Part shown: piece by piece, positions 1-19,040 of the stretch
Position numbering within the stretch: the stretch's first letter is position 1
How the letters are laid out: every line of letters begins with the position of its first letter
Origin: Bacillota bacterium
GTDB lineage: Bacteria > Bacillota_E > Symbiobacteriia > Symbiobacteriales > Symbiobacteriaceae
Assembly: GCA_003242675.1 (NCBI GenBank)
Contig: QGVE01000033.1
Location: 1-21,473 of the forward strand
Direction: 5' to 3'
Length of the DNA stretch: 21,473 nucleotides
Notes under the pieces: model-generated
Seen by the model: the letters and a program-made list of their open reading frames with translations, nothing else
Told to the model about the DNA's origin: nothing
The model's database searches: none
Program-made: the position numbers and the translations under genes

Positions 1-1231
1 AGCCGCCGCCGCAGACGTACCGGAAAGTGCATGCCTGGCACCCCGGCAGGTTATCCGGGTTCACGCCCAACATCGCCTTCAGCACCTCCGACGTCTCCCA
101 GATCTCCCGTAGCGGCTTCTCCCGGATGTTCCCGGCCCTGAACCGCGGATCGTGCAGCAGCTTGCAGGGGTAGACGTCGCCCTTGCAGTCGATGGAGATC
201 TCCTCGGTGCCAACCCCGCAGTGGCGCTTCAGAATGAACGGCGGCGGCGGGTTGTGGAGGAACCGCAGCCCCCGCAGGTTCACCTCGTCGATCCGCTCCA
301 CCAGGATCCGCAGCGACTCCTGCTCCGCCCAGACCCGGTCCGCAGCGGACGGGGCCATGCCCGACTCGCCCCGCCCCAGCTGGCTCACAAACCCGATGCG
401 GTGCGAGCGGATTCCGTGGTCCAGGGCCCAGGAGACCATCCCGGGCAGGTGCCGGACGCTCGCCGCCGTCACCGTGGTGTTGACGTCGACGGGAATGCCG
501 GCCTCCCTGAACAGGGCGATTGCCCGGTTCGCCCGCTCCCACGAGCCGGCGCCCCGCATCGCGTCGTGCCCTCCCTCCGGGCACGGGCTGTCCATGCTCA
601 CGGTCACCGAGGTGAGCGACCGGGCCAGCCGCTTCGCTTTCTCCGGCGTTACCGGACCCCCGTTGGTGATCAGGGAGACCTGAAGTCCACGCGCCTTCGC
701 GTGTTCGATCAAGTCAATGCAGTCCCGCCGCAGCAGCGCCTCGCCCCCGGTAAAGGCCATCGCCTTCACCCCGAGGTCGGCCACCTGGTCGATCATCGCC
801 ATCGCTTCCGCAGTCGTCAGGTCGCCCGCTGTATCCGCCTGCGGCGAGGACTCTGCATAACAGTAGGCGCACGCCAGGTTGCAGCGATAGGTGGCGACGA
901 AGTAGACCACCTTGGGTACCGTTCGCTTCACCTCACCCGGAGGTTCGGGGAGTGGCTCCCCCGGCAAGGCGGCGATCTTGTTGGCCCGCAGCAGCAGAAG
1001 CAGCCGTCCCACCTTCCGGCGGGCTTCAGCGGCGGAAAGGTTCCGGTGCGCCACCAACCACGAGAGGACCTCATTGGGCGTCATCCGCTGGTACTGGAGT
1101 CGGCTGATCACGGCGTAGTCGTCCCGACTGACCACGATCCAGCTGTGAATCGCGTAGTTATGAACGATGTAGCTGCCGGACTCGTAGTAGACCGCCGTCG
1201 TGGGCGCAAACCTTACGGGCTCATCCCACAT
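1..1231 (-). CDS. Radical SAM/SPASM peptide maturase (3' end beyond the left edge)
   Basis: About 410 codons are visible and the C-terminus lies outside the window. Start ATG at 1231 is preceded by AAAAGGAG about 10 nt upstream. Residues 1-90 (MWDEPVRFAP onward) resemble a PqqD-like RiPP recognition element. The radical SAM core follows, with the [4Fe-4S] motif at C117, C121 and C124 (RCNLACAYCYAES) and a GGEAL motif that helps bind SAM. From about residue 335 a cysteine-rich SPASM region appears (HCGVGTEEISIDCKGDVYPC, then GCQACTFRYVCGGG), expected to hold auxiliary Fe-S clusters. Enzymes of this build modify ribosomal peptides, for example by thioether or C-C crosslinks, or mature quinone cofactors. 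The gene lies 85 nt downstream of a tiny Cys-rich peptide gene on the same strand, so that peptide is the likely substrate. The chemistry cannot be read from the sequence. Family assignment is firm; the exact subclass is unknown. Confidence 0.92.
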   Translation of the reverse strand, partial: MWDEPVRFAPTTAVYYESGSYIVHNYAIHSWIVVSRDDYAVISRLQYQRMTPNEVLSWLVAHRNLSAAEARRKVGRLLLLLRANKIAALPGEPLPEPPGEVKRTVPKVVYFVATYRCNLACAYCYAESSPQADTAGDLTTAEAMAMIDQVADLGVKAMAFTGGEALLRRDCIDLIEHAKARGLQVSLITNGGPVTPEKAKRLARSLTSVTVSMDSPCPEGGHDAMRGAGSWERANRAIALFREAGIPVDVNTTVTAASVRHLPGMVSWALDHGIRSHRIGFVSQLGRGESGMAPSAADRVWAEQESLRILVERIDEVNLRGLRFLHNPPPPFILKRHCGVGTEEISIDCKGDVYPCKLLHDPRFRAGNIREKPLREIWETSEVLKAMLGVNPDNLPGCQACTFRYVCGGG

Positions 1232-1262
1232 GAGCCATCAGCTCCTTTTGGTGCGAGATAGG

Positions 1263-1295
1263 GGAAAAGGCAAGGAGGAAACCCTTGCCTTTTCC
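1263..1295 (-). promoter_or_regulatory. 13-bp perfect hairpin between peptide gene and maturase
   Basis: GGAAAAGGCAAGG (1263-1275) pairs perfectly with CCTTGCCTTTTCC (1283-1295) around a 7-nt loop. It sits between the stop of the small peptide gene (1317) and the start of the radical SAM gene (1231). No T-run follows on the minus strand, so it is not a full rho-independent terminator. It more likely attenuates read-through or protects the upstream mRNA, giving more precursor than enzyme, as is common in peptide-natural-product operons. That role is inferred. Confidence 0.6.
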
Positions 1296-1316
1296 GCCCA
1301 ACCTCGAACGCTTGAT

Positions 1317-1403
1317 TTACCAGCAGTACCCGATGATATAGCAGATGCACCAACCCTGGGGCGTCGGATTGAGCTCCTCCGCCATCGGCGCCTGGTACAG
1401 CAT
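1317..1403 (-). CDS. Putative RiPP precursor peptide, 28 aa, Cys-rich
   Basis: ATG at 1403 is preceded by the near-perfect site AAGGAGGTGACACC, so this very short frame is very likely translated. The N-terminal half (MLYQAPMAEELNPTPQG) looks like a short acidic/Pro leader. The C-terminal half is an aromatic, Cys-rich core, WCICYIIGYCW, with C19, C21, C27 and Trp at both ends. There is no Gly-Gly cleavage site and no signal peptide. The radical SAM/SPASM gene lies 85 nt downstream on the same strand and a matching promoter lies upstream, so the two probably form an operon with this peptide as the maturase substrate. Cysteines alternating with aliphatic/aromatic residues would suit thioether (sactipeptide/ranthipeptide-like) crosslinks, and Trp/Tyr could suit aromatic crosslinks; both are inferences. 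I do not recognise a named precursor family. A short uORF is the main alternative. Confidence 0.7.
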   Translation of the reverse strand: MLYQAPMAEELNPTPQGWCICYIIGYCW

Positions 1404-1455
1404 GGTGTCACCTCCTTCGGTCAAACCCCTTCGGCTGCCAGAGGCTGCCGGAACC

Positions 1456-1487
1456 TTTCCCTGCGGGTGAATTTCCCCGCAGGGAAA
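1456..1487 (-). promoter_or_regulatory. 12-bp perfect inverted repeat in the peptide-operon leader
   Basis: TTTCCCTGCGGG (1456-1467) and its exact reverse complement (1476-1487) flank an 8-bp AT-containing spacer. The element lies between the predicted minus-strand promoter (1502-1530) and the ribosome binding site of the peptide gene, so it falls in the first ~40 nt of the transcript. It could be a 5' stabilising hairpin, an attenuator, or a dimeric repressor operator. Confidence 0.6.
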
Positions 1488-1501
1488 CCGGCTGTGACCA
1501 C

Positions 1502-1530
1502 AGTATAAATGCCACGAGGATTCGTGTGAA
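1502..1530 (-). promoter_or_regulatory. Sigma-A-type promoter for the peptide/maturase operon
   Basis: On the minus strand, TTCACA (-35, 1525-1530) is separated by exactly 17 nt from TATACT (-10, 1502-1507), matching TTGACA/TATAAT at 4 and 5 of 6 positions. Transcription would start near 1495, about 90 nt before the peptide start codon, and run through the leader inverted repeat. The -35 box lies 16 bp from the direct repeats at 1546-1563, so a regulator bound there could affect this promoter too. Confidence 0.65.
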
Positions 1531-1545
1531 TGAGACATGAACACA

Positions 1546-1563
1546 TTTAAGCGAAATTTAAGA
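1546..1563 (+). promoter_or_regulatory. Direct-repeat operator (TTTAAG x2, 11-bp period) before the two-component genes
   Basis: TTTAAGC at 1546 and TTTAAGA at 1557 are spaced 11 bp, about one helical turn, as expected for OmpR/PhoB-family winged-helix dimers. A possible -10 (TATAGA, 1576-1581) lies downstream with no good -35, which fits an activator-dependent promoter. The same repeat type occurs upstream of the ABC transporter at 3744-3783. Autoregulation by the adjacent response regulator is inferred. Confidence 0.55.
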
Positions 1564-1617
1564 TTATGCTTGGAATATAGAAAACGCAAGGATCTATCCA
1601 CACGGGAGGGGAGGGCC

Positions 1618-2298
1618 TTGGAGAAGCTGCTGCTCATCGAGGACGACCTGGCCATCGGCGAGTTGCTGGTCGAACGCCTCGCCGAGGAGGGATTTGAGGT
1701 GCACTGGGAACGGACAGGCACCTCCGGCCTGACCGCCGCCCTGAACGGGAACTACGACCTGGTGCTGCTGGACATCATGCTTCCCGGGATCAACGGGTTC
1801 GACATCTGCCGGGAGGTCCGCAGGCACCGGCGAATGCCGATTCTGATGCTGACCGCCCGCACGGAAGAGGAGGAGCAGGTGCTGGGCCTGGGGCTGGGGG
1901 CGGATGATTACATCACGAAGCCCTTCAGCCTGACCACCCTGGTCGCCCGCATCCGCGCGCACCTGCGCCGGTTCCGGCTGGCGACGGCCGAAACCGGGAT
2001 CATCCAGGTCGGCCCGCTGGTGATCGATCCGGTCGCCTGCCGCGTCACCCGCAACGGCCGGGAGCTGAACCTGACGGCCAAGGAGTTCGAACTCCTCCTT
2101 CACTTCGCGCGGAACCCCAACCGCGTCTTCACCCGGGGCCAGCTGTACGAGGCCGTCTGGAAGGAGCCCTACCTCGGGGATGACAACACGGTGATGGTCC
2201 ACATCCGCCGGCTGCGGGAGAAGATCCAGCCGGAGGAGACGGACCCCGAGCTGATCCAGACGGTGCGCGGCCTGGGCTACCGCTTCGTTGTGGTGTGA
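1618..2298 (+). CDS. OmpR/PhoB-family response regulator
   Basis: This 226-residue DNA-binding response regulator probably starts at TTG 1618, because GGGAGGGGAGGG lies directly upstream and the protein then begins at the conserved (M)EKLLLIEDD edge. The ATG at 1537 would add an unconserved tail reading through the promoter region. The receiver domain (about 1-118) has the acidic pocket ED/D8-D10, phosphoacceptor D52 (LLDIMLPG), and TAR and ITKPF motifs. The winged-helix effector domain (about 130-226) ends in the typical VRGLGYRFVVV. The kinase gene starts 2 nt after the stop, or overlaps it if GTG 2295 is used. It likely controls its own operon, the ABC genes and perhaps the divergent peptide operon through TTTAAG/TGTAAG repeats; that target set is inferred. 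Confidence 0.95.
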   Translation: MEKLLLIEDDLAIGELLVERLAEEGFEVHWERTGTSGLTAALNGNYDLVLLDIMLPGINGFDICREVRRHRRMPILMLTARTEEEEQVLGLGLGADDYITKPFSLTTLVARIRAHLRRFRLATAETGIIQVGPLVIDPVACRVTRNGRELNLTAKEFELLLHFARNPNRVFTRGQLYEAVWKEPYLGDDNTVMVHIRRLREKIQPEETDPELIQTVRGLGYRFVVV

Positions 2299-2300
2299 CC

Positions 2301-3734
2301 ATGAGGACCATTCGGATGCAACTGCTGGGGGTCTACCTCGTCTCCCTGCTCCTCCCCCTGGCCAGCCTGGCCGCGGCGGGCGCCGTAACCTGGTTCCTCC
2401 TCTTTCCGGCCTCGAGCACCCTCGACCTGAACCGGCTCGTGCGCTACGCCTCCGACCTGAAGCCCATCGTCGAGAGCCGACTGCAGCAGGAGCCGCCCGC
2501 CGCCGTCCACCAGTGGCTGAGCGGGCGGCTCCGGTCCGAGCTGCCTCCCTACCTGCGGGTGCAGGTGGTCGACCCCGACGGCGTGGTGCTGGCAGACACC
2601 GACGGGTTGCCCGGCGAGACGCTGTCGATGGTCACCCTCTACCACCTCATGGATCCCCCGGGGCTGCACGAGGGCCGCTACCACGCGGTGGAGCTGCTGC
2701 AGCGTGCAGACGGCCGCCCGCTGGGGATGATGGTGGTCAGCGTGGCGGAGAGCGCCACCGCGGTCGTCCACATGGGCGGGAGCCGGCCGCAGGACCGGAT
2801 CGGGTCGGTCCTGCTGGCCAGCGTCCCCCTGCTGTCCTTCCTGGCCAGCGTCTCGCTCTTCTGGCGGCTGGGCTCCGCCCTGGTCCGCCCCCTGCAGGCG
2901 CTCTCCGTGGCGGTCTCCCGCGTGGCGGAGGGTGACCTGACGGTGGAGGTGCCGGTGGAGCGCCGGGACGAGATCGGCCAGCTGGCCCTGTCGGTCCAGG
3001 GGATGGTCCGCCGGCTGCGGGCCGCCCACGAGCGGGCGGAGGCGGCCGAGCGTGCCAGGCGGTACTGGGTGGCGGCCGCCTCCCACGACCTGCGTACGCC
3101 CCTGACCGTCATCCTGGCCCAGGTGGAGACGCTGCTCCGGGCCGACCTTACCCCGAACCACGTGCGTTCCCGGCTGCTCACCGTCTACCAGAAGGCGGAG
3201 CAGCTCAAGCAGATGGTGGACGGCCTGTTCGAACTGGCGGCCCTCGACGCCCAGGCGCTGGAATGGCCCCGGCAGGAGGCCGACCTTGCGGAGCTCATCC
3301 GCCGGGAGACCGCCCACCTGCTGCCGGCCATCGAGGGAGCCGGGATGGCGATTGAGGTGGACCTGCCCGAGCACCCCTGTCCGGTTCTGGTCGCGCCGGA
3401 CAAGATCCAGCGGGCCTTTCAGAACCTGGTCAACAACGCCATCCGCTACGGCGCTTCCGGCCGGCTGCTGATCGTGCGGATGCGGCGGCCCCGCTCCGGC
3501 TGGTGGCGGGTGGAAGTGGAAGACCGGGGCCCGGGGCTGGACGAAGAACGCATCCCGCTGCTCTTCGAACATATCTCCCGTGGCGGGAACGTGCCGGGGG
3601 AGGATCGGAGGGCAGGCGGCCTGGGGCTGACGATCGTGAAGGAGATCATCCGGCGGCACGATGGGCAGGTCGGAGCCACGAACGTGCCGGATGGCGGCGC
3701 CTGCGTCTGGTTTGAACTGCCCGCCCTGCGGTGA
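2301..3734 (+). CDS. Membrane sensor histidine kinase
   Basis: This is the partner of the preceding regulator. The start is ATG 2301; GTG 2295, overlapping the regulator's stop, is also possible. No strong ribosome site is seen, so translational coupling is likely. A first membrane helix (about residues 8-35) is followed by an extracellular sensor of about 125 residues and a second helix (about 165-190). Then come HAMP (RPLQALSVAVSRVAEGDL), the dimerisation domain with phosphoacceptor H262 in AASHDLRTPLTV, and a full ATP lid: N box FQNLVNNAIRYG, G1 EDRGPGLDEE, F box LLFEHIS, G2 GGLGLTIVKEI. All catalytic motifs are intact. The extracellular domain is much larger than that of BceS-type intramembrane sensors, so it may bind a ligand directly. 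Given the divergent peptide operon, that ligand could be the peptide or an envelope stress caused by it; this is inferred. Confidence 0.95.
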   Translation: MRTIRMQLLGVYLVSLLLPLASLAAAGAVTWFLLFPASSTLDLNRLVRYASDLKPIVESRLQQEPPAAVHQWLSGRLRSELPPYLRVQVVDPDGVVLADTDGLPGETLSMVTLYHLMDPPGLHEGRYHAVELLQRADGRPLGMMVVSVAESATAVVHMGGSRPQDRIGSVLLASVPLLSFLASVSLFWRLGSALVRPLQALSVAVSRVAEGDLTVEVPVERRDEIGQLALSVQGMVRRLRAAHERAEAAERARRYWVAAASHDLRTPLTVILAQVETLLRADLTPNHVRSRLLTVYQKAEQLKQMVDGLFELAALDAQALEWPRQEADLAELIRRETAHLLPAIEGAGMAIEVDLPEHPCPVLVAPDKIQRAFQNLVNNAIRYGASGRLLIVRMRRPRSGWWRVEVEDRGPGLDEERIPLLFEHISRGGNVPGEDRRAGGLGLTIVKEIIRRHDGQVGATNVPDGGACVWFELPALR

Positions 3735-3743
3735 GGGCGGGGA

Positions 3744-3783
3744 TTTAAGCTACATGTAAGCTCCAGTACAACTTCATGTAAGC
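3744..3783 (+). promoter_or_regulatory. Three-copy direct-repeat operator before the ABC transporter
   Basis: TTTAAGC (3744), TGTAAGC (3755) and TGTAAGC (3777) are spaced 11 and 22 bp, all on one helical face. This is the same motif and period as at 1546-1563. The array begins 9 bp after the kinase stop. A weak -10-like TACCTT (3793-3798) follows at the distance usual for PhoB-like activation. The ABC genes therefore probably have their own regulated promoter under the adjacent two-component system. Confidence 0.6.
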
Positions 3784-3825
3784 CCGCTGCGCTACCTTAT
3801 CCGCAACGGAGGTGGCGCAGATCAG

Positions 3826-4515
3826 ATGGATGCCATCTTGGTCCAGGGATTGCGCAAGGATGTCTTCTCGGGAAGCCAGCGGATCTCGGTGCTGAAAGGA
3901 ATCGACCTGGCGGTGGCCAGGGGGCAGATCGTCGCCATCATGGGGCCGTCGGGCAGCGGCAAGTCCACCCTGCTGTCCCTGCTGGGCGGGCTGGACCGTC
4001 CGACCGCCGGACGTGTCGTGGTCGGCGGCGAGGTGATCTCCGAGCTCTCCGAAGCGGAGTTGACCCGGTGGCGCCGCGCGAACCTCGGTTTCGTCTTCCA
4101 GTCCTTCCACCTGTTCCGAGCCCTGACGGTGCTGGAGAACGTGGCCGTGCCCGTCCAGCTCGCCGGCCGGAAGGACGCCTACGCGCGGGCCAGGACGCTG
4201 CTCGAGGCCGTCGGCCTGGGGGGAAGGCTGAACCACTACCCGCAGCAGCTTTCTGGCGGTGAACAGCAGCGGGTCGCGATCGCCCGGGCTTTTGCCGCGA
4301 GCCCCCGCTTCGTCCTCGCCGACGAGCCCACCGGAAATCTCGACCGTGCCACGGGCGAGGAAGTGATGGAACTGATGATCCGGCAGGCCAGGGCCGCGGG
4401 TGCCACCATGGTGATCGTGACCCACGACCCTGCGGTGGCCGAACGGTGCGACCGGACCTTCCTGATGGAGGACGGGCGGATCCGGCAGCGGGGAGGGGCG
4501 GTCAATGTACGCTAG
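3826..4515 (+). CDS. ABC transporter ATP-binding protein (YbbA/MacB/LolD type)
   Basis: This 229-residue ATPase starts at ATG 3826, with GGAGGT at 3808-3813 (spacing 12, slightly long). It has a complete nucleotide-binding fold: Walker A GPSGSGKST at 40-48, Q-loop FVFQSFHLF near 90, signature LSGGEQQR at 142-149, Walker B FVLADEP with catalytic E167, D-loop GNLD, and the H-loop in VTHD. Its length and motifs match the subfamily that pairs with FtsX-type permeases. The permease gene overlaps its 3' end by 11 nt, showing tight coupling. Such systems usually act as mechanotransmission or envelope-substrate pumps rather than importers. The operator upstream and the divergent peptide operon suggest peptide export or self-immunity, which is inferred. 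Confidence 0.95.
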   Translation: MDAILVQGLRKDVFSGSQRISVLKGIDLAVARGQIVAIMGPSGSGKSTLLSLLGGLDRPTAGRVVVGGEVISELSEAELTRWRRANLGFVFQSFHLFRALTVLENVAVPVQLAGRKDAYARARTLLEAVGLGGRLNHYPQQLSGGEQQRVAIARAFAASPRFVLADEPTGNLDRATGEEVMELMIRQARAAGATMVIVTHDPAVAERCDRTFLMEDGRIRQRGGAVNVR

Positions 4516-6937
4516 TCTCCGCCTCGGTTCGCGGGCCCTGATGGGCCGCAAGCGGCGCCTGTTCCTCCTCTCCCTGCTGGTGGCAGTGGGGATCGCCGGC
4601 ATGGTGGCGGTTCGCTCCACCGTCGGCGACCTGACCAGGCAGGTCGAGGAGCAGGCCCGTGCGCTTCTGGGCGCCGACCTGGAGCTCCGGGTCCCGGCGG
4701 ACCCGCCGGAAGAACTGGCGGAGGCGCTGGCCGCCGTCGAGCAGGCGGGAGGCGCCGTGCAGCCCGTGACGGTCGTTCCGGCCGTGGCCAGCGCGGGCAG
4801 CCGGGAGGCGCTGATCGAGGTGCGGGCGGTCGACCCGTCCCGCTACCCGTGGTACGGGCAGATCGAGCTGGAGTCGGGGGCAGCGCTGAACCAGGCGCTC
4901 CGCGCGGACGAGGTGGTCGTGGCCGCCGACCTGGCCGAGCAGCTGGACCTGCGGCCCGGCTCGCCCCTCACCCTCCTGGGGCGGACGTACACCGTGGCGG
5001 CCCTCATTGAGCGGGACCCCACCGTCGCATCGAAACCCCCGTTCGCCGGGCCGACCGTCCTCGTAGATCGCAGCGGCTTCGAACCGCCCGCCCGGGGCGC
5101 GGACGAGCGGCTCTTCGTGAAGCTGCCGCCGGGAGAGGAGGCCGAATCGCTCCGGCTCCGGCTGGAGGAGGCGTTGGGCGAAGACCGGGTCCGCCGGTAC
5201 GACGAGGCGGCGGCCGACCTCCAGAGGACGCTGGCGCTCACCGCCCGGGCGCTCACGCTGATCGCCTTCAGCGCCATCTTCCTGGGCGCCCTGGGCGTCG
5301 CCTCCAACGTGCGTGCATTCCTCGCGGAGGAGACCGAGGAGATCGCCGTCTGGAAGGCGCTGGGCTGCTCGACCGGGGAGGTCGCCGCGTACTACGCGGT
5401 CCAGATCGCCGTTGCCGGCACGCTCGGAAGCCTGGTCGGCGCCGGCGCGGGAATCGGAGCCAGGTCGCTGGTTCTGGCGCTTTTCCGGGAACAGCTCCCC
5501 GCGGCCACAGAGGCCCTGCCGCTGGGCGCCGAACCGGTCCTGGTCGGCCTGCTCTTCGGTCCGGTCATTGCCCTGCTGGCCGCCGTGCCTGACCTGGCCA
5601 CCCTGACAGCCATCCACCCGCACCTGGCCCTGCGGGCCGGCGAGCGACCGGCCGGGCGGGGGGCGCGGATGCTGGTCGCCGGGCTGGCGGTCGTCGCCGC
5701 GGCCCTGGGCTTGGTTGCCGCCCTCACCGGCTCCCTCAGGCTCAGCGCCGCCTTTCTGGCGGTGCTGACCGCGGCCGCCTTGTCGCTGTTCGTCATCAGC
5801 CTGTTCACCCTCTGGCTCCTGACCCGGGTTCCCGGCGGGTGGCTGCCGTGGTTCGTCGCCAAGCGCAACCTCCGGCGCCCCAGCGCGCCGGTGGCGGTGG
5901 TCGCCCTCAGCCTGGGCACGTTCCTCCTCTCCGGCCTCGGGCTGCTCCGGGACGGGTTGGTGGCTGACCTGGAGCGGACTGGCGGCTCCGCCGTGACGCC
6001 TAACCTCTACTTGCTGCAGGTGCCCGCCGAAACGCGGCACGACCTGCAGCGGTACCTGGATCAACGGGAGGAGGTCATCTGGACGCTCCCCTCCTTCGCC
6101 ATGGCCAATGGCCAGGTGACCACCGCCGGAGGCGATCGGCGCTCGGCCCTCCTGGTCGAACAGAACCAGCTGATGCGGCATGAGATCGTCGCGGGGCGGG
6201 ACCTGACCCCCGACGACCTGGGCCGGCCCCATCTGCTGCTGCGCAACAGAGAGGCCGCCGCCTGGGGGCTCGAACCGGGCGACAGCGTGACGGTCACCAT
6301 CAGCGGCGCGGAGCGGACCTTCACCGTGGTCGGCATCTTCGACCCCGCCCAGGGGCTGCGGATCGACGCACCGGTCGTGCTGCCGACCGGCGCCATCGAC
6401 ACGGCAGGGACCTATATCCTGCCGCTTCGGGTGCAGTCCGGCGCCGTGGCGGCGCTGCAGTCCGATCTCCTGAGCCGGTACCCCGGCATGCTTCCCGTCA
6501 GCCTGGATGATGTGCTCAACATGGCCAGGGAAGTGGTCGACCAGGCGGCCCTGCTGCTGCGGGGGGTCAGCCTGCTCGCCCTGGCGGCGGGCGCCGTGGC
6601 CGTCGCCGGCGCGGTGGTGGCTAGTCACCTGGAGAGGCGGCGGGACGCGGCCCTGTTCAAGGTGCTGGGCGTCTCCTGGGCACAGGTGCTCACGATGCAG
6701 TCGCTGGAGGGCCTGGTTCAGGGGGCGGGAGCCGGTCTGGCGGGCGGGTTGCTGGCGCTCCTCTCCTTCGGCATCATCGTCCGCATTCTGACCGGCCAGG
6801 GCCTGCCGGCCCACCTGATCTGGCAGACGCTGCTGATCTGGCCCGCCCTCACGGGGGCGATCTCCCTGCTCTCCAGCCAACTGGCGCTCTGGGGGATCCG
6901 GCGGGAGCCCGTCCTGCTCACGCTGCGCGGCCAGTGA
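4505..6937 (+). CDS. FtsX-like ABC permease (YbbP-like, two FtsX modules)
   Basis: This 810-residue integral membrane protein has ATG 4505 inside the end of the ATPase gene, behind GGGGAGGGG. One N-terminal helix (about 17-38) precedes a large extracytoplasmic domain. FtsX module 1 follows (about 245-370, including ETEEIAVWKALGCS, the cytoplasmic coupling motif). A central group of helices (about 385-482), a second extracytoplasmic domain (about 485-690) and FtsX module 2 (about 690-805, with RRRDAALFKVLGVS) complete it, for roughly ten helices. Length and layout match E. coli YbbP (about 804 aa), and the neighbouring ATPase matches YbbA (about 228 aa). MacB and BceB permeases are shorter and have a different helix arrangement. 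Its substrate is unknown. The operon ends at the terminator 16 nt downstream. Confidence 0.92.
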   Translation: MYASLRLGSRALMGRKRRLFLLSLLVAVGIAGMVAVRSTVGDLTRQVEEQARALLGADLELRVPADPPEELAEALAAVEQAGGAVQPVTVVPAVASAGSREALIEVRAVDPSRYPWYGQIELESGAALNQALRADEVVVAADLAEQLDLRPGSPLTLLGRTYTVAALIERDPTVASKPPFAGPTVLVDRSGFEPPARGADERLFVKLPPGEEAESLRLRLEEALGEDRVRRYDEAAADLQRTLALTARALTLIAFSAIFLGALGVASNVRAFLAEETEEIAVWKALGCSTGEVAAYYAVQIAVAGTLGSLVGAGAGIGARSLVLALFREQLPAATEALPLGAEPVLVGLLFGPVIALLAAVPDLATLTAIHPHLALRAGERPAGRGARMLVAGLAVVAAALGLVAALTGSLRLSAAFLAVLTAAALSLFVISLFTLWLLTRVPGGWLPWFVAKRNLRRPSAPVAVVALSLGTFLLSGLGLLRDGLVADLERTGGSAVTPNLYLLQVPAETRHDLQRYLDQREEVIWTLPSFAMANGQVTTAGGDRRSALLVEQNQLMRHEIVAGRDLTPDDLGRPHLLLRNREAAAWGLEPGDSVTVTISGAERTFTVVGIFDPAQGLRIDAPVVLPTGAIDTAGTYILPLRVQSGAVAALQSDLLSRYPGMLPVSLDDVLNMAREVVDQAALLLRGVSLLALAAGAVAVAGAVVASHLERRRDAALFKVLGVSWAQVLTMQSLEGLVQGAGAGLAGGLLALLSFGIIVRILTGQGLPAHLIWQTLLIWPALTGAISLLSSQLALWGIRREPVLLTLRGQ

Positions 6938-6952
6938 ACCCCCTGTGTGAAA

Positions 6953-6986
6953 AACCCCGTACGTCCCGTTCCGGACGTACGGGGTT
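6953..6986. terminator. Bidirectional rho-independent terminator between convergent genes
   Basis: A perfect 14-bp stem, AACCCCGTACGTCC (6953-6966) with 6973-6986, closes a 6-nt loop. On the minus strand the stem runs into TTTTT, so it ends yhbH transcription. It also lies 16 nt after the permease stop and can serve that operon, although the plus-strand tail (CTCGTT) is poor in T. Confidence 0.85.
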
Positions 6987-6990
6987 CTCG

Positions 6991-8133
6991 TTATCCCACC
7001 GCCACGCCGCTCCGGCTGAACCACTTCTGCAGGGCCGGGTACACGTCTCTCTTCTCCGTAATCGTCACGATCACAAACCGCGGGTCCTTGATCGCCGAGA
7101 ACGCGGACATGAGGGAACTTGTGTATCCGGCCTCCCGGATCTCCCCGTACCCGAACAGGTTGCAGACCTCCAGCAGCTTGTGCACCAGCTCCACGCACAG
7201 CCGGTTGTCGTTGTCGCTCCAGTTGTCGCCGTCGCTGAAGTGGAAGGGATAGATGTTCCACCGCTCCGGGTCGTACCGCTCGTGGATGATGTCCAGGGCC
7301 AGCCTGTAGGCCGAGGAAACCCGCGTGCCGCCGCTCTCGCCCCGCTTGAAGAACGCTTCCTCGTCCACCTCCTCCGCCTCGGAGTGGTGGATGATGAACA
7401 CGATCTCCACGTCCTGGTACTTGGTCCGCAGGAAGCGGACCATCCAGAAGAACAGGCTGCGGGTGATATACTTCTTAAACTCGCCCATCGAGCCTGAGGC
7501 GTCGCGCATCGCGATCACGACCGCGCTGCTGCTCGGGCGCATCTCCTGCTCCCACACCTTGAACCGCAGGTCCTCGTTGCGGATGTTGCCGAGCACCGGA
7601 ATGCCCTGGCGGGCGTTCCGCTTCAGGTTCTCCATGATGGTCCGCCGCCGGTCCAGGTTGGACATCGGCCCCTTCTTGCGGACCTCGGTGAACCGGACCT
7701 CCTCGGTGGGGACCTCCTGCGTCGACTTCGGCCTCAGATCCGGCAGGCCCAGGTCCTCGAAGATGAGCTCCGCCAGGTCGTCGACGGTCACTTCCGCCTC
7801 GTAGTAGTCGATCCCGGGCTGGTCGCCCGGCTGGCTGCCGGCGCCGCCCTGCCCCCCGGGCCGGGGGCGCGCGATCACGTCGCCCACCTTCGAGTCGCCG
7901 TCGCCCTGTCCCACGCGCTTTCCCTGGTTGGGGTTGAACCGGAAGCGGTACTCCTCCAGCGTCCGGATCGGCACCTTGATGATCTGCTTCCCGTCGGAGG
8001 TGATGATGGACTCCTCGGAGATGATCTCGGGCAGGTTCTGGCGCAGCGCCTCTTTCACCTTTTCATGGTGCCGGGCCTGGTCAAGCGGCCCCTTCCGGTG
8101 CAGGCTCCAGTCGTGCCGAGACGTCGAGGCCAT
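6991..8133 (-). CDS. yhbH: YhbH/DUF444 sporulation-associated protein
   Basis: This 380-residue cytoplasmic protein of the DUF444/YhbH family is close in length to Bacillus YhbH (about 392). ATG 8133 has GAGGAGGGGGG upstream. The N-terminal part (about 1-90) is charged and contains IISEESIITSDGKQIIKVPI. A Gly-rich linker (about 88-130) follows, then a von Willebrand A-like domain with the metal-site motif DASGSMGE (about residues 211-218) and later FSDGDNWSDN. In Bacillus and Clostridia this gene is linked to sporulation and often to a PrkA kinase and SpoVR. Neither partner is adjacent here. Its biochemical role remains unclear even in model species. Confidence 0.93.
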   Translation of the reverse strand: MASTSRHDWSLHRKGPLDQARHHEKVKEALRQNLPEIISEESIITSDGKQIIKVPIRTLEEYRFRFNPNQGKRVGQGDGDSKVGDVIARPRPGGQGGAGSQPGDQPGIDYYEAEVTVDDLAELIFEDLGLPDLRPKSTQEVPTEEVRFTEVRKKGPMSNLDRRRTIMENLKRNARQGIPVLGNIRNEDLRFKVWEQEMRPSSSAVVIAMRDASGSMGEFKKYITRSLFFWMVRFLRTKYQDVEIVFIIHHSEAEEVDEEAFFKRGESGGTRVSSAYRLALDIIHERYDPERWNIYPFHFSDGDNWSDNDNRLCVELVHKLLEVCNLFGYGEIREAGYTSSLMSAFSAIKDPRFVIVTITEKRDVYPALQKWFSRSGVAVG

Positions 8134-8229
8134 GCTCGTCCCCCCTCCTCGCTGCGCACCCGGGACGGTGCACGGATCGTACTCCAGTCTATGCGGCGGG
8201 CCATTCCCAGACCGTACCTTTCCGGGGCA

Positions 8230-8345
8230 GATTTGCCTTCGGGCGGGTGCGTTTCGCCCACAGCTTATTTATATGGAAATTCTGATTATCGCAGGAATTC
8301 GTTTAAATACGGCGAACCTCCCTTCCAACGAGGTCAGGGGCCCCA
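8230..8345. promoter_or_regulatory. AT-rich divergent promoter region between yhbH and the protease
   Basis: The 242-bp gap between the divergent start codons contains an AT-rich island (about 8262-8310: TTATTTATATGG, TGATTATC, GTTTAAATAC) in otherwise GC-rich DNA, as expected for promoters. I could not pair -35 and -10 boxes convincingly on either strand, nor fit a sporulation-sigma consensus. The protease ribosome site GGGAGGTGG is at 8361-8369. Confidence 0.35.
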
Positions 8346-8375
8346 ACCTCGAATCCCGTTGGGAGGTGGAGCACC

Positions 8376-14261
<5,886 letters not shown>

Positions 14262-14277
14262 CGCAGGGCCGGAAAGC

Positions 14278-14306
14278 AGGAGGGAGCGGCGAGCCCGCTC
14301 CCTCCT
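14278..14306 (+). terminator. GC-rich terminator hairpin after the protease
   Basis: AGGAGGGAGCGG (14278-14289) pairs perfectly with CCGCTCCCTCCT (14295-14306) around a 5-nt loop, 16 nt after the protease stop codon. There is no T-run, as is common in high-GC genomes, so termination efficiency is uncertain. Confidence 0.65.
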
Positions 14307-14385
14307 GGCGCGTCCGGCCAAGCCAGCGCCCCACCATGGCCGGCCGCAGCGGGCCGCCCGGCCGGCCGGGCCTGAGCGCGAAGAA

Positions 14386-14413
14386 GCCGGCCCGCGTCCG
14401 GATGCGGGCCGGC
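14386..14413 (-). terminator. Terminator hairpin for the small membrane protein gene
   Basis: GCCGGCCCGC (14386-14395) pairs perfectly with GCGGGCCGGC (14404-14413) around an 8-nt loop, 11 nt beyond the minus-strand stop. The minus-strand sequence after the stem is TTCTTCGCG, a weak T-tract. Confidence 0.6.
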
Positions 14414-14424
14414 AGCGAGATGGG

Positions 14425-14586
14425 TCAAGCCGATCGCATGGGGCGAGACTCGGCGGAGGACCGGGCCGCCTCCCGGGCGGCCTGGACGGCGGCGTCCAGC
14501 CTGCGGAGCAGGCGGATCCATTTCAGCACGGTGAACACGAGCACGGCCGCCGCGACCAGCAGGTATCCGCGCTGTAGTGGGTCCAT
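14425..14586 (-). CDS. Small single-helix membrane protein, 53 aa
   Basis: ATG 14586 is preceded by GGGGGAGGGAGCGGC, a good ribosome site. The predicted peptide begins MDPLQRGYLLVAAAVLVFTV, with one hydrophobic helix (about residues 8-24). A positively charged stretch (KWIRLLRRL) and an amphipathic Ala/Arg/Glu-rich tail follow, ending at TGA 14425-14427. A hairpin terminator lies just downstream. The layout of a short outside N-terminus, one helix and a basic cytoplasmic helix is common among small envelope or spore-related proteins, but I recognise no family. Ribosome site, frame length and terminator together support a real gene. Confidence 0.6.
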   Translation of the reverse strand: MDPLQRGYLLVAAAVLVFTVLKWIRLLRRLDAAVQAAREAARSSAESRPMRSA

Positions 14587-14676
14587 GCCGCTCCCTCCCC
14601 CGCTGCCGTTGCTCTCCCATGCTCAAAGGCTTTCGTATCGTTCGACCCCCGAAAGGGCGGTTCCTGCTGGGGACCT

Positions 14677-14711
14677 CCCGGGCGGCCGGACCGGCTGCGC
14701 CGGCGCCCGGG
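14677..14711 (-). terminator. GC-rich hairpin after the PgpA-like gene
   Basis: CCCGGGCG (14677-14684) pairs with CGCCCGGG (14704-14711), with a further inner CCGG/CCGG pairing. It starts 6 nt after the minus-strand stop. No T-run follows, so this is only a probable terminator. Confidence 0.45.
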
Positions 14712-14716
14712 GCGAC

Positions 14717-15202
14717 TTACTCGTCCCCGTCGTTGCTCGGCCGCCGGGCGTGGGCGATGCGGCTGGCCGCGGCCGCGGCGATGGCGGAGACCAGGTCGTC
14801 CAGGAACGTGTGGCAGTTGCCGTTCTTGTGCGAGTTGAGCCGGCCGATGACCAGCGGCTTGGTCTTGTCCAGGTAGCCGAAGTTGGTGAGGCCGATGGAG
14901 CCGTAGATGTTGGTGATCGACAGCGCCAGAATCTCGTCGACGCCGAAGAGGAAGTCGTCGCTGGCGACGATGGACTGCAGCGGCTCCGGCAGCTTCCCCT
15001 GTTCCGCGAGCATGTCCAGGGCCAGTCCGGTCAGAACCGCGTTCTGAACCTCACGCTTCCTCACCACGGCCTCCACGCTCTCGAGGCACTCCTCCAGCGG
15101 GAGCGAGTCGTAATAGTTCTTCTGGATCTCATGGACGACCTCGGCGATCTCCCGGAGCGTGACGCCGCGGTCTTCCAACATCTTCACAACGGTCTTGTAC
15201 AT
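14717..15202 (-). CDS. PgpA/YutG-like phosphatidylglycerophosphatase A family protein
   Basis: This protein of 161 residues starts at ATG 15202, with AGGAGG seven nt upstream. The frame is open further upstream to 15283 but lacks a ribosome site there. The sequence MYKTVVKMLEDRGVTLREIA, then IVASDDFLFGVDEILALSITNIYGSIG and NSHKNGNCHTFLDDLVSAIA, resembles Bacillus YutG and the PgpA domain family, with several conserved acidic residues. Classical PgpA dephosphorylates phosphatidylglycerophosphate and has membrane helices. YutG-type proteins such as this are mainly soluble and their substrate is less certain, so the enzymatic label is provisional. It appears monocistronic: a terminator lies upstream at 15341-15373 and a hairpin downstream. 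Confidence 0.75.
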   Translation of the reverse strand: MYKTVVKMLEDRGVTLREIAEVVHEIQKNYYDSLPLEECLESVEAVVRKREVQNAVLTGLALDMLAEQGKLPEPLQSIVASDDFLFGVDEILALSITNIYGSIGLTNFGYLDKTKPLVIGRLNSHKNGNCHTFLDDLVSAIAAAAASRIAHARRPSNDGDE

Positions 15203-15223
15203 CCGGGTCCTCCTGTTCTGGTG

Positions 15224-15252
15224 CGTCTCATGGTTTATCAACTTATGAGACG
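15224..15252 (-). promoter_or_regulatory. Inverted repeat in the PgpA-like gene leader
   Basis: CGTCTCAT (15224-15231) and ATGAGACG (15245-15252) form an 8-bp inverted repeat with a 13-bp AT-rich spacer, just upstream of the ribosome site. The half-site spacing (about two helical turns centre to centre) fits a dimeric regulator, or a leader hairpin. No known regulator motif is recognised. Confidence 0.4.
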
Positions 15253-15281
15253 TTTGACACCACCGTGCGGGCTTGCGCGCC

Positions 15282-15301
15282 ACTATACGAGATCCATTAT
15301 A
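15282..15301 (-). promoter_or_regulatory. Candidate -10 elements for the PgpA-like gene
   Basis: On the minus strand, TATAAT (15296-15301) and TATAGT (15282-15287) occur within an AT-rich patch 80-100 nt upstream of the start codon. Neither has a clear -35 partner. The position, between the upstream terminator and the gene, supports a promoter here. Confidence 0.4.
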
Positions 15302-15340
15302 TACAGAAATAACACCGCCTGTCCTCCTGCCGCAAAAAAC

Positions 15341-15373
15341 CCGGCCCTCTCCGGCAGTGCCGGAGAGGGCCGG
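15341..15373 (-). terminator. Strong rho-independent terminator after the Cu-amine-oxidase-N protein gene
   Basis: CCGGCCCTCTCCGG (15341-15354) pairs perfectly with 15360-15373 around a 5-nt loop. On the minus strand the stem is followed by G then TTTTTT. It begins 27 nt after the stop codon of the upstream gene. Confidence 0.92.
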
Positions 15374-15400
15374 TCACGCAGGGGCCGCGGCCGACTCCCC

Positions 15401-16762
15401 CTATTGATCGACCAGGACCCGGATGCTCGCCGCGCCGCCCCGGGCCGGGTAGGACATCAGCATCGGGCCGGCCACCGTCACCTCGACGCGGGCGCCCACT
15501 TTCAGATCGTCCACGGTGCCCGCGGCGTCGCCGACCAGGATGGTCGTGTTCTCACCCACGGCCAGCCAGGCCAGGAAGGGCTCGCCGCTGGACATGGCCT
15601 CACCCTCCAGCAGGATCCGACCGTCGGCGATCTCCTTGATCACGCCGGTGAGGATGTCCGCCTTGCGGCGGGGCACCACCACGATGCTGGCCGCGCCACC
15701 CCGGGCCGGGAACGACTCCAGGATCGGGCCGGAGAGCTCGACGATGACCTCAGCGCCCACCTGCAGGTCGGCGGCCGTGCCGGCGCTCTCGCCCACGGTG
15801 ATCTGCGTCTCATCCGAGACGGTCACCCAGATCAGCATGGGCTCGCCGTTCGACATGGGCGGGCCCTCCACGAGGACACGCCCGTCCTCCACCTGGCGGA
15901 TCTTTCCGTACAGTCGGTCCTGCATCGCCTCGTCCGGGGCGGTGGTTTCCACCGGGGGCGTGCGGTTCACGACCGCTCCGACCAGGCTCAGGACGCCCTC
16001 CTCCGCCTCCGCCTGGCGCAGGCCGAGCGCCGTGGTGAGGGCGTCGGCGGAGATCATGGTCCGCTCCGCGATGATCTGCGCGGGCTGCGCCATCGACACG
16101 CGGGTGCCGCCGGCCGGTGCGGCTGCGGCCTTCCGCACCTCCGCCTCCTTCTCGCCGATGCGGAAGATGACGGTCCGGTCCGGCAGGTCCACCCGGACGG
16201 CTCGCGCCTCGCCGTCCCAGGTCACCTGCGCGCCCATCGCCTCGGCGATGGCCCGCAAGGGCACCAGCAGGACGCCGTCCGCGACGGTCGGGCTGCCCAG
16301 GTCGCGCGCCACGGGCTTGCCGTCCACCCGGATCTCCTTCGGCAGCGGGGCGTTCGCGCTCACGTCCCGGAGCGCCGGGGCCATGGCCTCCACCTCACCG
16401 GCCGGCCGGATGCTCGTCACCTGGATCGCCGGGACCATGTAGAACGAGATCCCGGTGAACTCAGTGCCCTCGATGACCACCTCCTGGCCGGCGAACCGGG
16501 CGAACTCCTCCGGGTCGCCGATCAGCCGCGTCCCGGCCACGGCCCAGTAGCCGCCCTCCAGGTCCACCCACTCGACGACGCCCACCAACCGCACGAGGCT
16601 CCCCACCTCCGAGGGGGCAAGGATCGGCACGGCATCCGCCGGGGCCGAAATCGGAAGCGCGTCGGCCGGCCCATCGACAGGCAGGTCTCCGGCCAGCGCG
16701 GGAATGGCGGACACGCCCATCAGCAAGGCGCTGAGCGCCGCGGTCTTCTTCCAGCGCTTCAT
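15401..16762 (-). CDS. Secreted protein with copper-amine-oxidase-N-like domain and two C-terminal repeats
   Basis: This protein of 453 residues starts at ATG 16762 (GGGGAGG upstream). A signal peptide (MKRWKKTAALSALLMGVSAI, cleavage about PALA|GD at 24) leads into a small beta-rich domain (about 55-120). A region from about 135 to 205 resembles the Cu_amine_oxidN1 domain (RVDGKPVARD, VPLRAIAEAMGAQVTWDGEA, VRVDLPDRTVIFRIGEK), frequent in secreted Firmicute proteins and not evidence of oxidase activity. Two tandem C-terminal repeats (about 285-363 and 370-450) share MSxGEPxLxWxxV, VGxxAGTxxDLxVGA and YPARGGAASI-type blocks; they recall DUF3221/YobA-like beta domains. No membrane anchor is seen. 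Function is unknown; a cell-wall or matrix role is plausible. A strong terminator follows. Confidence 0.85.
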   Translation of the reverse strand: MKRWKKTAALSALLMGVSAIPALAGDLPVDGPADALPISAPADAVPILAPSEVGSLVRLVGVVEWVDLEGGYWAVAGTRLIGDPEEFARFAGQEVVIEGTEFTGISFYMVPAIQVTSIRPAGEVEAMAPALRDVSANAPLPKEIRVDGKPVARDLGSPTVADGVLLVPLRAIAEAMGAQVTWDGEARAVRVDLPDRTVIFRIGEKEAEVRKAAAAPAGGTRVSMAQPAQIIAERTMISADALTTALGLRQAEAEEGVLSLVGAVVNRTPPVETTAPDEAMQDRLYGKIRQVEDGRVLVEGPPMSNGEPMLIWVTVSDETQITVGESAGTAADLQVGAEVIVELSGPILESFPARGGAASIVVVPRRKADILTGVIKEIADGRILLEGEAMSSGEPFLAWLAVGENTTILVGDAAGTVDDLKVGARVEVTVAGPMLMSYPARGGAASIRVLVDQ

Positions 16763-16860
16763 CTCCCCAACCTCCCCTTCAAGGATGTTCACCCTGACAG
16801 ACGGGGGGCCCCCTCCGGGCCGTTTCACCGGCTGGACAAAAACCGCGTGAAAGCGCGGCG

Positions 16861-16895
16861 AGCGGCTCTCCCCCCTGCCAGGGGCGGGAGCCGCT
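16861..16895 (-). terminator. Imperfect hairpin after the YceI-like gene
   Basis: AGCGGCTC (16861-16868) pairs with GAGCCGCT (16888-16895), with an inner CCCCT/AGGGG pairing. It starts 15 nt after the minus-strand stop. Without a T-run it may terminate only partly, allowing read-through into the next gene on this strand. Confidence 0.5.
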
Positions 16896-16909
16896 TGCCC
16901 GCGCGCCGG

Positions 16910-17617
16910 CTAGCTCTGCGCCTCCCCGACGAAGGTGACCCTGACCGTCACCTCGTCCTCCACCGCCACGAAGTTGGCGATGTTGGGCGGGTCCACGCCG
17001 AAGTCGGTCATGGCGAAGGTCGCCTCCGCCGTCAGCGTCAGGACGCCATTCTCCAGCTTCGCCGTGCCCTCGAAGGTGAGGGGCCTGTCCACGCCCTTGA
17101 TGGTCATGGTGCCGGTCAGCCGGATGGGGACCTCCTGCCCCTCGGCGAGCACCGGGTCGCCCTCGGCCCGTTCGATGCGGTAGACCGCCTTCGGGTGGTT
17201 CCGGGTGTCCAGGACCCGCTGCACCTGGTTGTCCCGGCGCGCCTGATCGCTGCGCAGGGTGGTCAGGTCCACCTCGACGGTGGAGGGCTGAATGACGCCG
17301 TCCTGCAGGACGATGGCCCCGGCGATCGCCGAGGTCCTGCCCACCGCGGTCACGTCGAGCCGCTGCCCGAGGAACGTCTCGTCGACCGCGTAGGACGCCT
17401 CGGACCGGGTGGTGTCCACGTGGTAGGCGATGCCGTCCGCGCTGGCCGGCGCGCGGTCCTCCGACGCCGCCGGTGCCGCCTCCCTTTCGGCCGTTCCCGG
17501 AGACTGCGGCGCGGCCGCCGGCGGGTGCTCGGGCTGCGGCTGCGCGGCGCCCCGGGCGCACCCGGCCACCAAGGCCGCCGCCAAGACCAGGCTGAGGAGC
17601 AAGGTCGAACGCTTCAG
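16910..17617 (-). CDS. YceI-like lipocalin-fold lipoprotein, probable CTG start
   Basis: This protein of 235 residues belongs to the YceI family, whose beta-barrel fold binds isoprenoid-like lipids. Residues 1-20 form a lipoprotein signal, (M)KRSTLLLSLVLAAALVAGC, with lipobox LVAGC. A Pro/Ala/Glu-rich linker runs to about 62. The YceI domain then begins IAYHVDTTRSEASYAVDE and includes VEVDLTTLRSDQARRDNQV, TGTMTIKGVDRPLTFEGTA and ATFAMTDFGVDPPNIANF. No ATG, GTG or TTG lies between the upstream stop region and the basic n-region. The CTG at 17617 has GGAGGGG five nt upstream, and its use gives the Lys-Arg n-region. TTG 17602 is the alternative but would remove the positive charge. The protein is predicted to be anchored outside the membrane. 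Confidence 0.85.
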   Translation of the reverse strand: MKRSTLLLSLVLAAALVAGCARGAAQPQPEHPPAAAPQSPGTAEREAAPAASEDRAPASADGIAYHVDTTRSEASYAVDETFLGQRLDVTAVGRTSAIAGAIVLQDGVIQPSTVEVDLTTLRSDQARRDNQVQRVLDTRNHPKAVYRIERAEGDPVLAEGQEVPIRLTGTMTIKGVDRPLTFEGTAKLENGVLTLTAEATFAMTDFGVDPPNIANFVAVEDEVTVRVTFVGEAQS

Positions 17618-17659
17618 AAGAACCCCTCCAAGATCCGTTGATTCGGTACTATTTTGGAC

Positions 17660-17682
17660 AGAAACCCTGAAAGAAACCTGAA
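17660..17682. repeat. Tandem direct repeat in the YceI upstream region
   Basis: AGAAACCCTGAA (17660-17671) is followed at once by AGAAACCTGAA (17672-17682). The near-helical period (11-12 bp) and position about 45-65 bp before the start codon suggest a regulator site. The motif differs from the TTTAAG repeats elsewhere in the window. Confidence 0.4.
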
Positions 17683-17766
17683 GGTAGCATAAATATTTCC
17701 TTGTAAAATGCGCAGGCTCCGCCGGCAGGGGCCGGTGAAGGCGGTTTGACCGCGTGGCACGGGAAA

Positions 17767-17799
17767 GGGCTGGTTCCGCCCAAGGAGCGGAACCAGCCC
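17767..17799 (-). terminator. Terminator hairpin after the hydrolase gene
   Basis: GGGCTGGTTCCGC (17767-17779) pairs perfectly with GCGGAACCAGCCC (17787-17799) around a 7-nt loop. On the minus strand it is followed by TTTCCCG. It lies 52 nt beyond the hydrolase stop and separates that gene from the YceI-like gene. Confidence 0.75.
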
Positions 17800-17850
17800 A
17801 CGGCTCTTGATCGGCGTTGACGCAGGTTCCATCGCGACCCGGTGCGCGGG

Positions 17851-19029
17851 TCAGCGCGTCCCGGTCTGCGCCTTCAGCCACTCCAGGAGCGCCGCGATCG
17901 CCGCCTCGTCCATCGGGCCGAACCCGTCCCGGGCCGGGTCCTCCGTGGGGCTCAGGGCGTGGCCCAGGCCGGGGAAGCGGCGCAGCGTGACGAATGCGGG
18001 CGCCGCGGCGGCGATGGCCTCGCCGTCCTTCACCGGCACGAACCCGTCCTGCTCGCCGTGCAGGATCAGCACCGGCCGGCGCAGCTGCGGCACGATCTCC
18101 GCCAGCGAGGCGGCCGGCTCGTTGGCCGGGTCCATCATCGGGTTGACGGCGGGATTGGCGATGAACGCCTCGATGGCCGGACGCAGCTCGGCCTCCAGGT
18201 CGATCAGCCCGTCGCCGTCCCGGTCGGTGTCCGGCCGCATCTTCGGGGACCACGGCGTCGAGTCCGGCGCCCACACGTAGAAGCTGCCCATGAGCGCAGC
18301 CGGGCCCGGCGGCACCTCCATCCACTCCTTCACCGAGAGCTTGCCGTCCCCGTCCGCGTCCACCTCCGCCAGCAGGCGCAGACCCAGTTCGAGGTGCTGG
18401 TACCGCAGGGTGGCGGGCCACCCGCTGGTGGGCGGCCCCTGCAGGATAACCCCCGCCACCCCGACGTCGGCCAGGGCGGCGTGGCCCGCGACCTGCGCGC
18501 CCTGGCTCCAGCCGTAGAGGTAGATGCGGTCCGCGTCCACCTCGGGCTGCTCCCGGGCGGCGGCGATCACCCGCGCGGCATCCGCGATCAGCTGGTTCGT
18601 GGTCGCACGGTACGACTGCTCCAGGTCGTAGTCGCCGAGCCGCCTCACCCCCCGCTTGTGGAACCGGAGCACGGCGAAGCCCTCCTGGCTCAGCCGCTCC
18701 GCCAGCAGCCGGAAGTTGGCCGAGGCGACCCGGCCGCTCGCGTCCACGCTGGTGGCGTCCATGTCCACCGGGCCCGACCCGTGGAAGAGGATCACCGCCG
18801 GCCAGGGCCCCTCGCCCTCCGCCGGATAGGTGAGCTCTGCGCCGGAGGACCACGTGTCGTCGAGGGCGATGGTCAGGGCTCGCCGGCGGATCTCGCCGGT
18901 CGCCGCGGAGCCGCCGGTCCCGCCCTCGGCAGCCCGCCCGTCGCCGCCCGAGGGGCCGCCCGCCGGCGCGCAGCCCGCGGCGAGGAGAAGCGCCAGGATT
19001 GCGGCGGTCAACTTGCCGCGCATCCCCAT
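17851..19029 (-). CDS. Lipoprotein alpha/beta hydrolase with EF-hand-type insert
   Basis: This protein of 392 residues starts at ATG 19029 (GAGGGA seven nt upstream); GTG 19044 is the longer alternative. MGMRGKLTAAILALLLAAGC is a lipoprotein signal with lipobox LAAGC, so the enzyme is likely tethered outside the membrane. The alpha/beta-hydrolase fold has oxyanion motif LFHGSG, nucleophile S175 (GWSQGA), acid D328 (LHGEQDG) and H357 (GLGHALS). Between nucleophile and acid, in the cap region, are two calcium-loop motifs: DADGDGKLSVKEW (about 223-235) and DTDRDGDGLIDLEAE (about 267-281). Both show the D-x-D-x-D-G pattern of EF-hand or dockerin loops. The substrate is unknown; ester or peptide hydrolysis is possible. 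The start lies 12 nt after the stop of a decayed transporter permease, suggesting that the gene was once coupled to it. Confidence 0.88.
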   Translation of the reverse strand: MGMRGKLTAAILALLLAAGCAPAGGPSGGDGRAAEGGTGGSAATGEIRRRALTIALDDTWSSGAELTYPAEGEGPWPAVILFHGSGPVDMDATSVDASGRVASANFRLLAERLSQEGFAVLRFHKRGVRRLGDYDLEQSYRATTNQLIADAARVIAAAREQPEVDADRIYLYGWSQGAQVAGHAALADVGVAGVILQGPPTSGWPATLRYQHLELGLRLLAEVDADGDGKLSVKEWMEVPPGPAALMGSFYVWAPDSTPWSPKMRPDTDRDGDGLIDLEAELRPAIEAFIANPAVNPMMDPANEPAASLAEIVPQLRRPVLILHGEQDGFVPVKDGEAIAAAAPAFVTLRRFPGLGHALSPTEDPARDGFGPMDEAAIAALLEWLKAQTGTR

Positions 19030-19040
19030 CCCCCATTCCC

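Follow-up and report, generated by a model that had tools for sequence, protein, structure and literature searches.

A short gene upstream of a radical SAM maturase

The window analysed here is a stretch of 21,473 nucleotides from a member of the Symbiobacteriaceae (contig QGVE01000033.1, positions 1 to 21,473). At its beginning a 28-codon frame precedes, on the minus strand, the gene of a radical SAM enzyme with a SPASM domain. An initial annotation, made from the sequence alone, had proposed that the two form the precursor and the maturase of an undescribed ribosomally synthesised and post-translationally modified peptide (RiPP). The features that bear on this proposal are the following.

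1502..1530, minus strand: sigma-70-like promoter of the short gene, TTCACA-17-TATACT, matching at 10 of 12 positions
1456..1487, minus strand: perfect hairpin of 12 bp (fold z -4.4 and -4.6), probably within the 5' untranslated region
1408..1417, minus strand: Shine-Dalgarno sequence AAGGAGGTGA, 4 nucleotides before the ATG
1317..1403, minus strand: 28-codon putative precursor gene, MLYQAPMAEELNPTPQGWCICYIIGYCW, with a YxxP leader motif at residues 3-6 and cysteines at 19, 21 and 27
1263..1295, minus strand: 13-bp perfect hairpin between the two genes (fold z -4.9 and -5.7)
2..1231, minus strand: radical SAM/SPASM maturase, StsB-like, with a predicted N-terminal RiPP recognition element (RRE)-type domain; 410 amino acids in the window, the C-terminus being cut off by its edge

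The Shine-Dalgarno 10-mer occurs once in the window, both strands counted, and among the 326 combinations of start and open reading frame (ORF) of 20-60 amino acids in the window only the short gene has a match of at least 7, which bears out the near-perfect ribosome site originally claimed. The promoter, described at the outset as consensus-like, likewise holds up: it is the one such promoter found in the region, against a mean of 0.3 in shuffles, and its 3' end lies about 100 nucleotides upstream of the gene. The enzyme's ATG (1231) follows 85 nucleotides after the short frame, and none of 200 shuffles of either hairpin region folds equally well; an Rfam scan gave no matches. These signals fit a strongly expressed small gene, with a hairpin that would stabilise or attenuate the transcript standing between it and the maturase gene, and a probable role of this intergenic hairpin would be to control the expression ratio of precursor and enzyme. 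As had been noted, the three cysteines lie within a short aromatic C-terminus; a Pfam scan of the peptide returned no domains.

The frame is retained in a relative. A homologue search with the peptide and its 12 upstream residues as the query (40 residues being the minimum) returned two proteins from two candidates, P0122 and P0123, with one common C-terminus. Gene callers usually set their lower length limit above 28 codons, and both relatives are listed solely within longer ORFs in the same frame (51 and 69 amino acids). They are identical to the window peptide at 25 of 28 residues, with residues 10-28 unchanged and substitutions at positions 1, 4 and 9; given that position 1 changes from Met to Val, their peptide probably begins at a GTG start. 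Before the start codon, 7 of 12 residues are identical in the relative, 3 of these under the Shine-Dalgarno sequence. Residues 2-18 of P0123 align to window frame -2 (16/17) and residues 14-69 to frame -1 (42/56), a switch which implies that the upstream frame was broken by an indel while the frame of the gene was kept. This upstream break led us to reject the longer in-frame ORFs (35 amino acids from a TTG; 134 from the GTG at 1721) as the true gene. Loss of the 28-residue frame in relatives, named in the initial annotation as an outcome that would speak against its proposal, is not what we see in the one relative found, and we regard the frame as almost certainly a real gene.

The maturase and its relatives

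The enzyme matches PF04055 (Radical_SAM, 97.4 bits) and PF13186 (SPASM, 45.2 bits) and has invariant motif cysteines. The CxxxCxxC cysteines (C117, C121 and C124) are unchanged in 18 of 18 aligned sequences, and so are the five of seven SPASM cysteines that precede the window's end (C338, C356, C398, C401 and C407); the remaining two, C411 and C430, are visible in the relatives only, at 90% or more. Since a 94% identical protein has 458 amino acids, about 48 residues with the last SPASM cysteines should lie beyond the window.

The claim of a PqqD-like N-terminus survives at the level of the modelled fold and not of the Pfam family. PF05402 (PqqD) did not match the maturase at E ≤ 0.1, whereas an AlphaFold2 model of P0001, a protein from a 7.5-kb contig, has an N-terminus of three strands followed by three helices (pLDDT 94-98, residues 1-90), and CteB aligns to this model from residue 9 or 10 over nearly its whole length, at about 20% identity. 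According to PMC8172795, CteB has an N-terminal RRE, and the model thus predicts an RRE-type domain at the N-terminus of the maturase. CteB (PDB 5wgg/5why) is the closest solved fold, and since SkfB, SuiB, TigE and ChlB align too, the fold leaves the chemistry unfixed.

In the tree, the maturase falls in a 21-row clade (95/95) with the StsB-type protein P0019 and the enzyme of a locus on a Streptantibioticus cattleyicolor plasmid (L109), within which it occupies a separate 16-row sub-clade (99/97). Membership of the mycofactocin and pyrroloquinoline quinone (PQQ) families was rejected, both NCBIfam scores being under their cut-offs (MftC, TIGR03962, 140.3 bits against 265; PqqE, 95 against 381). 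Paenibacillales are among the sources of the enzyme relatives P0002-P0016; P0002-P0005 are 61-65% identical to the maturase, while P0012 comes from Chengkuizengella axinellae and P0016 from Saccharibacillus deserti. Two of these, P0007 and P0009 (53% and 42% identical to the maturase; longest contig 4935 bases each), may be neighbours in one relative.

Further relatives proved distant. In viral contigs the enzyme alignment found distant radical SAM proteins only (79 loci kept, best segments 20-30% identical, with a peak of 38% over one short segment), and in 511 plasmid and 24 phage records searched by tblastn no hit spanned 80% of the enzyme query. With the full-length relative P0012 as the query, 8 of 409 plasmid records reached this coverage, in 8 rows at most 31.8% identical, from which the Streptantibioticus locus alone was taken further; its own enzyme matched two plasmid records at E ≤ 1e-40, both from S. 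cattleyicolor itself. A scan of genome contigs gave three distant loci. The broad profile A1 matched 64 of 299 genomes at E ≤ 1e-60, with no score exceeding 235 bits. A search for GerPA, meant to locate a Bacilli genome, gave 3 of 81 at E ≤ 0.001, two of them above the cut-off, and was abandoned. Within the class of G351, the genome nearest to the window among those found, 21 of 154 genomes have a match to the enzyme at E ≤ 1e-30, which leaves 133, G351 included, with none at that threshold; the sole nearly full-length match in that table comes from genome G513 (locus L138).

Shared motifs of the putative precursors

At two related loci a short peptide is followed by a maturase. In L138 the enzyme is preceded by a GTG-started peptide, MTYFKPIIEHLPNYCAAEPQCACGFVSGSGGG, and followed by a 95-residue PqqD protein; in L109 the peptide MVSSWIKPDITSAEPQMLPPACSCGCGSGGGGGAGS, preceded by a 6-base Shine-Dalgarno match, is followed by an enzyme scoring above the StsB cut-off and then by a PqqD protein. 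At a third locus, L139 (genome G413), PqqD occurs together with an S24-like peptidase and an ABC-2 transporter. The three precursors, from the window, L138 and L109, have in common a [YW]xxP near the start and a CxC in the core. The order of short peptide and maturase thus recurs, but the WCxCY...YCW core that the initial annotation proposed to look for is not seen in these more distant relatives, in which CxC is retained within Gly/Ser-rich cores.

A search with the joint precursor alignment returned 4 proteins from 474 candidates at E ≤ 10, including P0125 (E = 1), which retains YFKP and CACG and has no PQ. The pattern [YW]xxP...PQ...CxC, composed after the three precursors had been seen, matched 5 rows among 13,622 small ORFs (20-60 amino acids) from 146 sources: the window and L109 with earlier starts, one place twice (L112 and L138), and one chance ORF in L061. 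As PQ is missing from P0125, we dropped it as a defining feature; the looser pattern has 30 rows, the 5 included.

The YxxP motif reads YQAP at residues 3-6 of the window peptide and YEAP in P0122/P0123. According to PMC12710340, a W/Y/LxxP/L/I sequence is what RREs of four groups (PqqD, FusE, McjB and StsC) bind; StsC no longer retains StsA once W/V or K/P in WxxP are replaced by alanine. By this likeness in sequence, the YxxP of the window peptide appears to be a leader motif of the RRE-bound type.

Several observations at these and more distant loci stand apart. In L139, a 306-residue protein after PqqD (1268-2188, minus strand) matches Peptidase_S24 at 26.2 bits (cut-off 23.3) and is a candidate leader peptidase. 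Next to the L138 cluster are a reverse transcriptase (13859-14842, plus strand) and a protein with helix-turn-helix (HTH) and tetratricopeptide repeat regions (8965-10356, minus strand), a type seen in peptide-sensing regulators. Five of six more distant maturase loci (L140, L141, L142, L143 and L145, not L144; genomes G257, G178, G126, G091 and G157) have upstream a short single-cysteine peptide of the type MYGKLGGKRLRIDLAIDGYCFTFRLWGHRVTIG (for instance L141:3705-3806 and L142:4535-4636). On visual inspection, four of these loci (L140, L141, L142 and L145) have a LuxR-type HTH frame upstream, and four (L140-L143) have a CPBP-like frame downstream. Two of the peptides were scanned and had no Pfam or NCBIfam matches; the type appears to be a RiPP family of its own, perhaps an undescribed one.

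Neighbouring genes and a possible insert

Divergently from the precursor gene run those of a two-component system and an ATP-binding cassette (ABC) transporter.

1545..1562, plus strand: direct repeat ATTTAAG-N4-ATTTAAG between the divergent units
1618..2298, plus strand: OmpR-family response regulator; its frame is open from the ATG at 1537, but to judge by the sequence it likely starts at the TTG at 1618
2295..3734, plus strand: sensor histidine kinase with a HAMP domain (Pfam/NCBIfam)
3826..4515, plus strand: ABC transporter ATPase of the LolD/MacB type, under the LolD cut-off
4505..6937, plus strand: FtsX-type ABC permease, 810 amino acids

The repeat is a possible site for the OmpR-type regulator and is suggestive only, as a 7-mer repeat at helical spacing also turns up in 150 of 5000 shuffled versions of the region. 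The FtsX permease was not found in any of the three genomes searched, a search run without a positive control.

Positions 6995-21473 of the window are collinear with G351 (MurB 89% identical, main blocks 75-92%), which holds extra sequence between the collinear blocks. Positions 1-6994 have no counterpart at that site in G351; their sole match in the 55 kb compared is 523 bases of the response regulator, at 65% and elsewhere. Peptide, maturase, two-component system and transporter thus look like one lineage-specific insert adjoining yhbH. By eye, an inverted repeat lies at 6950-6990 between the convergent stops of the FtsX permease and yhbH, and is probably a common terminator at the insert edge. 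Further along, a subtilisin-like protein (8376-14261) contains a long Gly-Glu-Pro repeat linker (13500-13770); several of its stretches align to one segment of about 60 bases in G351, where the array is seemingly shorter.

Interpretation and alternatives

We favour the reading, with a probability of roughly 70%, that an undescribed RiPP cluster of the StsB-like kind has its upstream end here. The 28-residue peptide would be the precursor, and very probably the substrate of the maturase. Its N-terminal YxxP segment would dock on an RRE-type domain, either that of the maturase itself or a discrete PqqD-type protein, which would be encoded immediately past the window edge, and the SPASM enzyme would then cross-link the C-terminal core, GWCICYIIGYCW. 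The bonds are probably thioethers from Cys19, Cys21 and/or Cys27 to backbone carbons, each formed with a loss of 2 Da, so that three cysteines could give up to three thioethers and 6 Da in total. Kinship with StsB argues for bonds to alpha carbons, while other acceptor carbons would be compatible with the aromatic core and with the low StsB score. The divergent two-component system and transporter probably would serve in sensing, exporting or providing immunity to the product, although we consider such a role an even call. The kept frame, the YxxP leader, the recurring gene order and the grouping with StsB support the initial proposal of a radical SAM RiPP.

A number of points weigh against this reading. 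The maturase scores 221.4 bits over 410 residues with the StsB model NF045574 and so stays under its cut-off of 625, as do the full-length relatives P0012 (266) and that of L138 (202); the enzyme of L109 passes at 738. The aromatic core has no Gly/Ser-rich tail, unlike those of L138 and L109; the peptide of L138 has a weak Shine-Dalgarno match of 4 bases, and L139, in the same wider clade, has no cysteine peptide of this kind with a Shine-Dalgarno sequence directly upstream. The peptide search (one peptide from two of two candidates) gave no precursor for the organisms whose enzymes are 53-65% identical. A discrete RRE gene was not seen in the window, which ends inside the enzyme, and the link to the two-component system and transporter consists of adjacency and of absence at one site of one genome. 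In PMC12710340, moreover, K(-18)A/P(-17)A, outside WxxP, likewise abolished StsC binding, so the motif by itself is insufficient.

These points leave space for other readings. The same pair could carry out a chemistry other than sactionine formation, giving the beta- or gamma-thioethers made by some SPASM maturases (ranthipeptide type), or C-C or C-O bonds at Tyr and Trp, in which case the cysteines would stay thiols or disulfides. Tyr and Trp are indeed abundant beside the cysteines, the enzyme is under the StsB cut-off, and the fold, closest to CteB but alignable with SkfB, SuiB, TigE and ChlB too, is compatible with more than one chemistry; nevertheless, the nearest named branch, StsB, is described as a sactipeptide maturase, and CxC, not the aromatic residues, is what the three precursor types keep, which makes this alternative improbable, if worth keeping in mind. 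That the product is a redox cofactor or signal, as with mycofactocin or PQQ, in place of a secreted inhibitor seems less probable still: the very short precursor, the adjoining sensor kinase and the matches to the two models speak for it, yet both scores lie below their cut-offs, and the unit is absent at the G351 site, unlike a core cofactor, and adjoined by an ABC transporter. We give very little credence to the notion that the 28-residue frame is no gene and the substrate is encoded beyond the window. Short ORFs are common, as the small-ORF count above illustrates, but the Shine-Dalgarno sequence is unique, the frame is kept across an upstream indel while conservation drops before the start codon, and YxxP and CxC recur in the same gene order at two related loci.

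Within the favoured StsB-like reading, one could also speculate, with more doubt than confidence, that the locus represents a distinct branch making a compact aromatic multicycle from a precursor of only 28 residues, in which Cys19, Cys21 and Cys27 are joined to a Tyr/Trp/Ile-rich backbone or its side chains, not to the Gly/Ser acceptors expected in the relatives, and that this branch has a sensor kinase and an ABC transporter of its own, carried on a lineage-specific insert. The locus would add to the StsB-like maturases a branch whose core is very different and whose natural aromatic substrate would allow tests of the rules for acceptor sites, and it offers a gene below the calling floor with independent evidence of its reality. 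We take the host to be apparent kin of Symbiobacterium, which is suggestive of thermophily; in that case the enzyme could be a sturdy tool for peptide cyclisation.

Comparison with known systems

Searches of the open-licence literature for the core GWCICYIIGYCW, a Symbiobacterium sactipeptide or a Symbiobacterium radical SAM precursor peptide found none, weak evidence of absence from print; papers that mention both Symbiobacterium and RiPPs do not, to judge by their titles, deal with this system. MftC (TIGR03962) is a SPASM maturase of a short peptide as well, but the window enzyme reaches 140 bits of the required 265, and the CW end of its precursor differs from the mycofactocin motif. The SCIFF maturase CteB is about 20% identical, and SCIFF precursors have six cysteines in some 45 residues, against three in 28 here. 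GggB/streptosactin of streptococci resembles the locus in its small cysteine precursor, radical SAM maturase and regulators, and differs in that the description of its cluster, in the portion of PMC8172795 available, includes a protease and mentions neither a two-component system nor an FtsX transporter. The StsA/StsB/StsC system of actinomycetes shares the wider maturase clade, a short cysteine precursor upstream and a [W/Y]xxP leader, and a PqqD-type protein is seen in the related loci L109, L138 and L139, downstream of the enzyme. From StsA, whose source study is reportedly Precord 2023, and its partners the window locus differs in the score of its enzyme (221 bits against 625) and in an RRE gene that would lie outside the visible window, as well as in an aromatic core free of the Gly/Ser tail and in the two-component system and FtsX ABC transporter that adjoin its genes.
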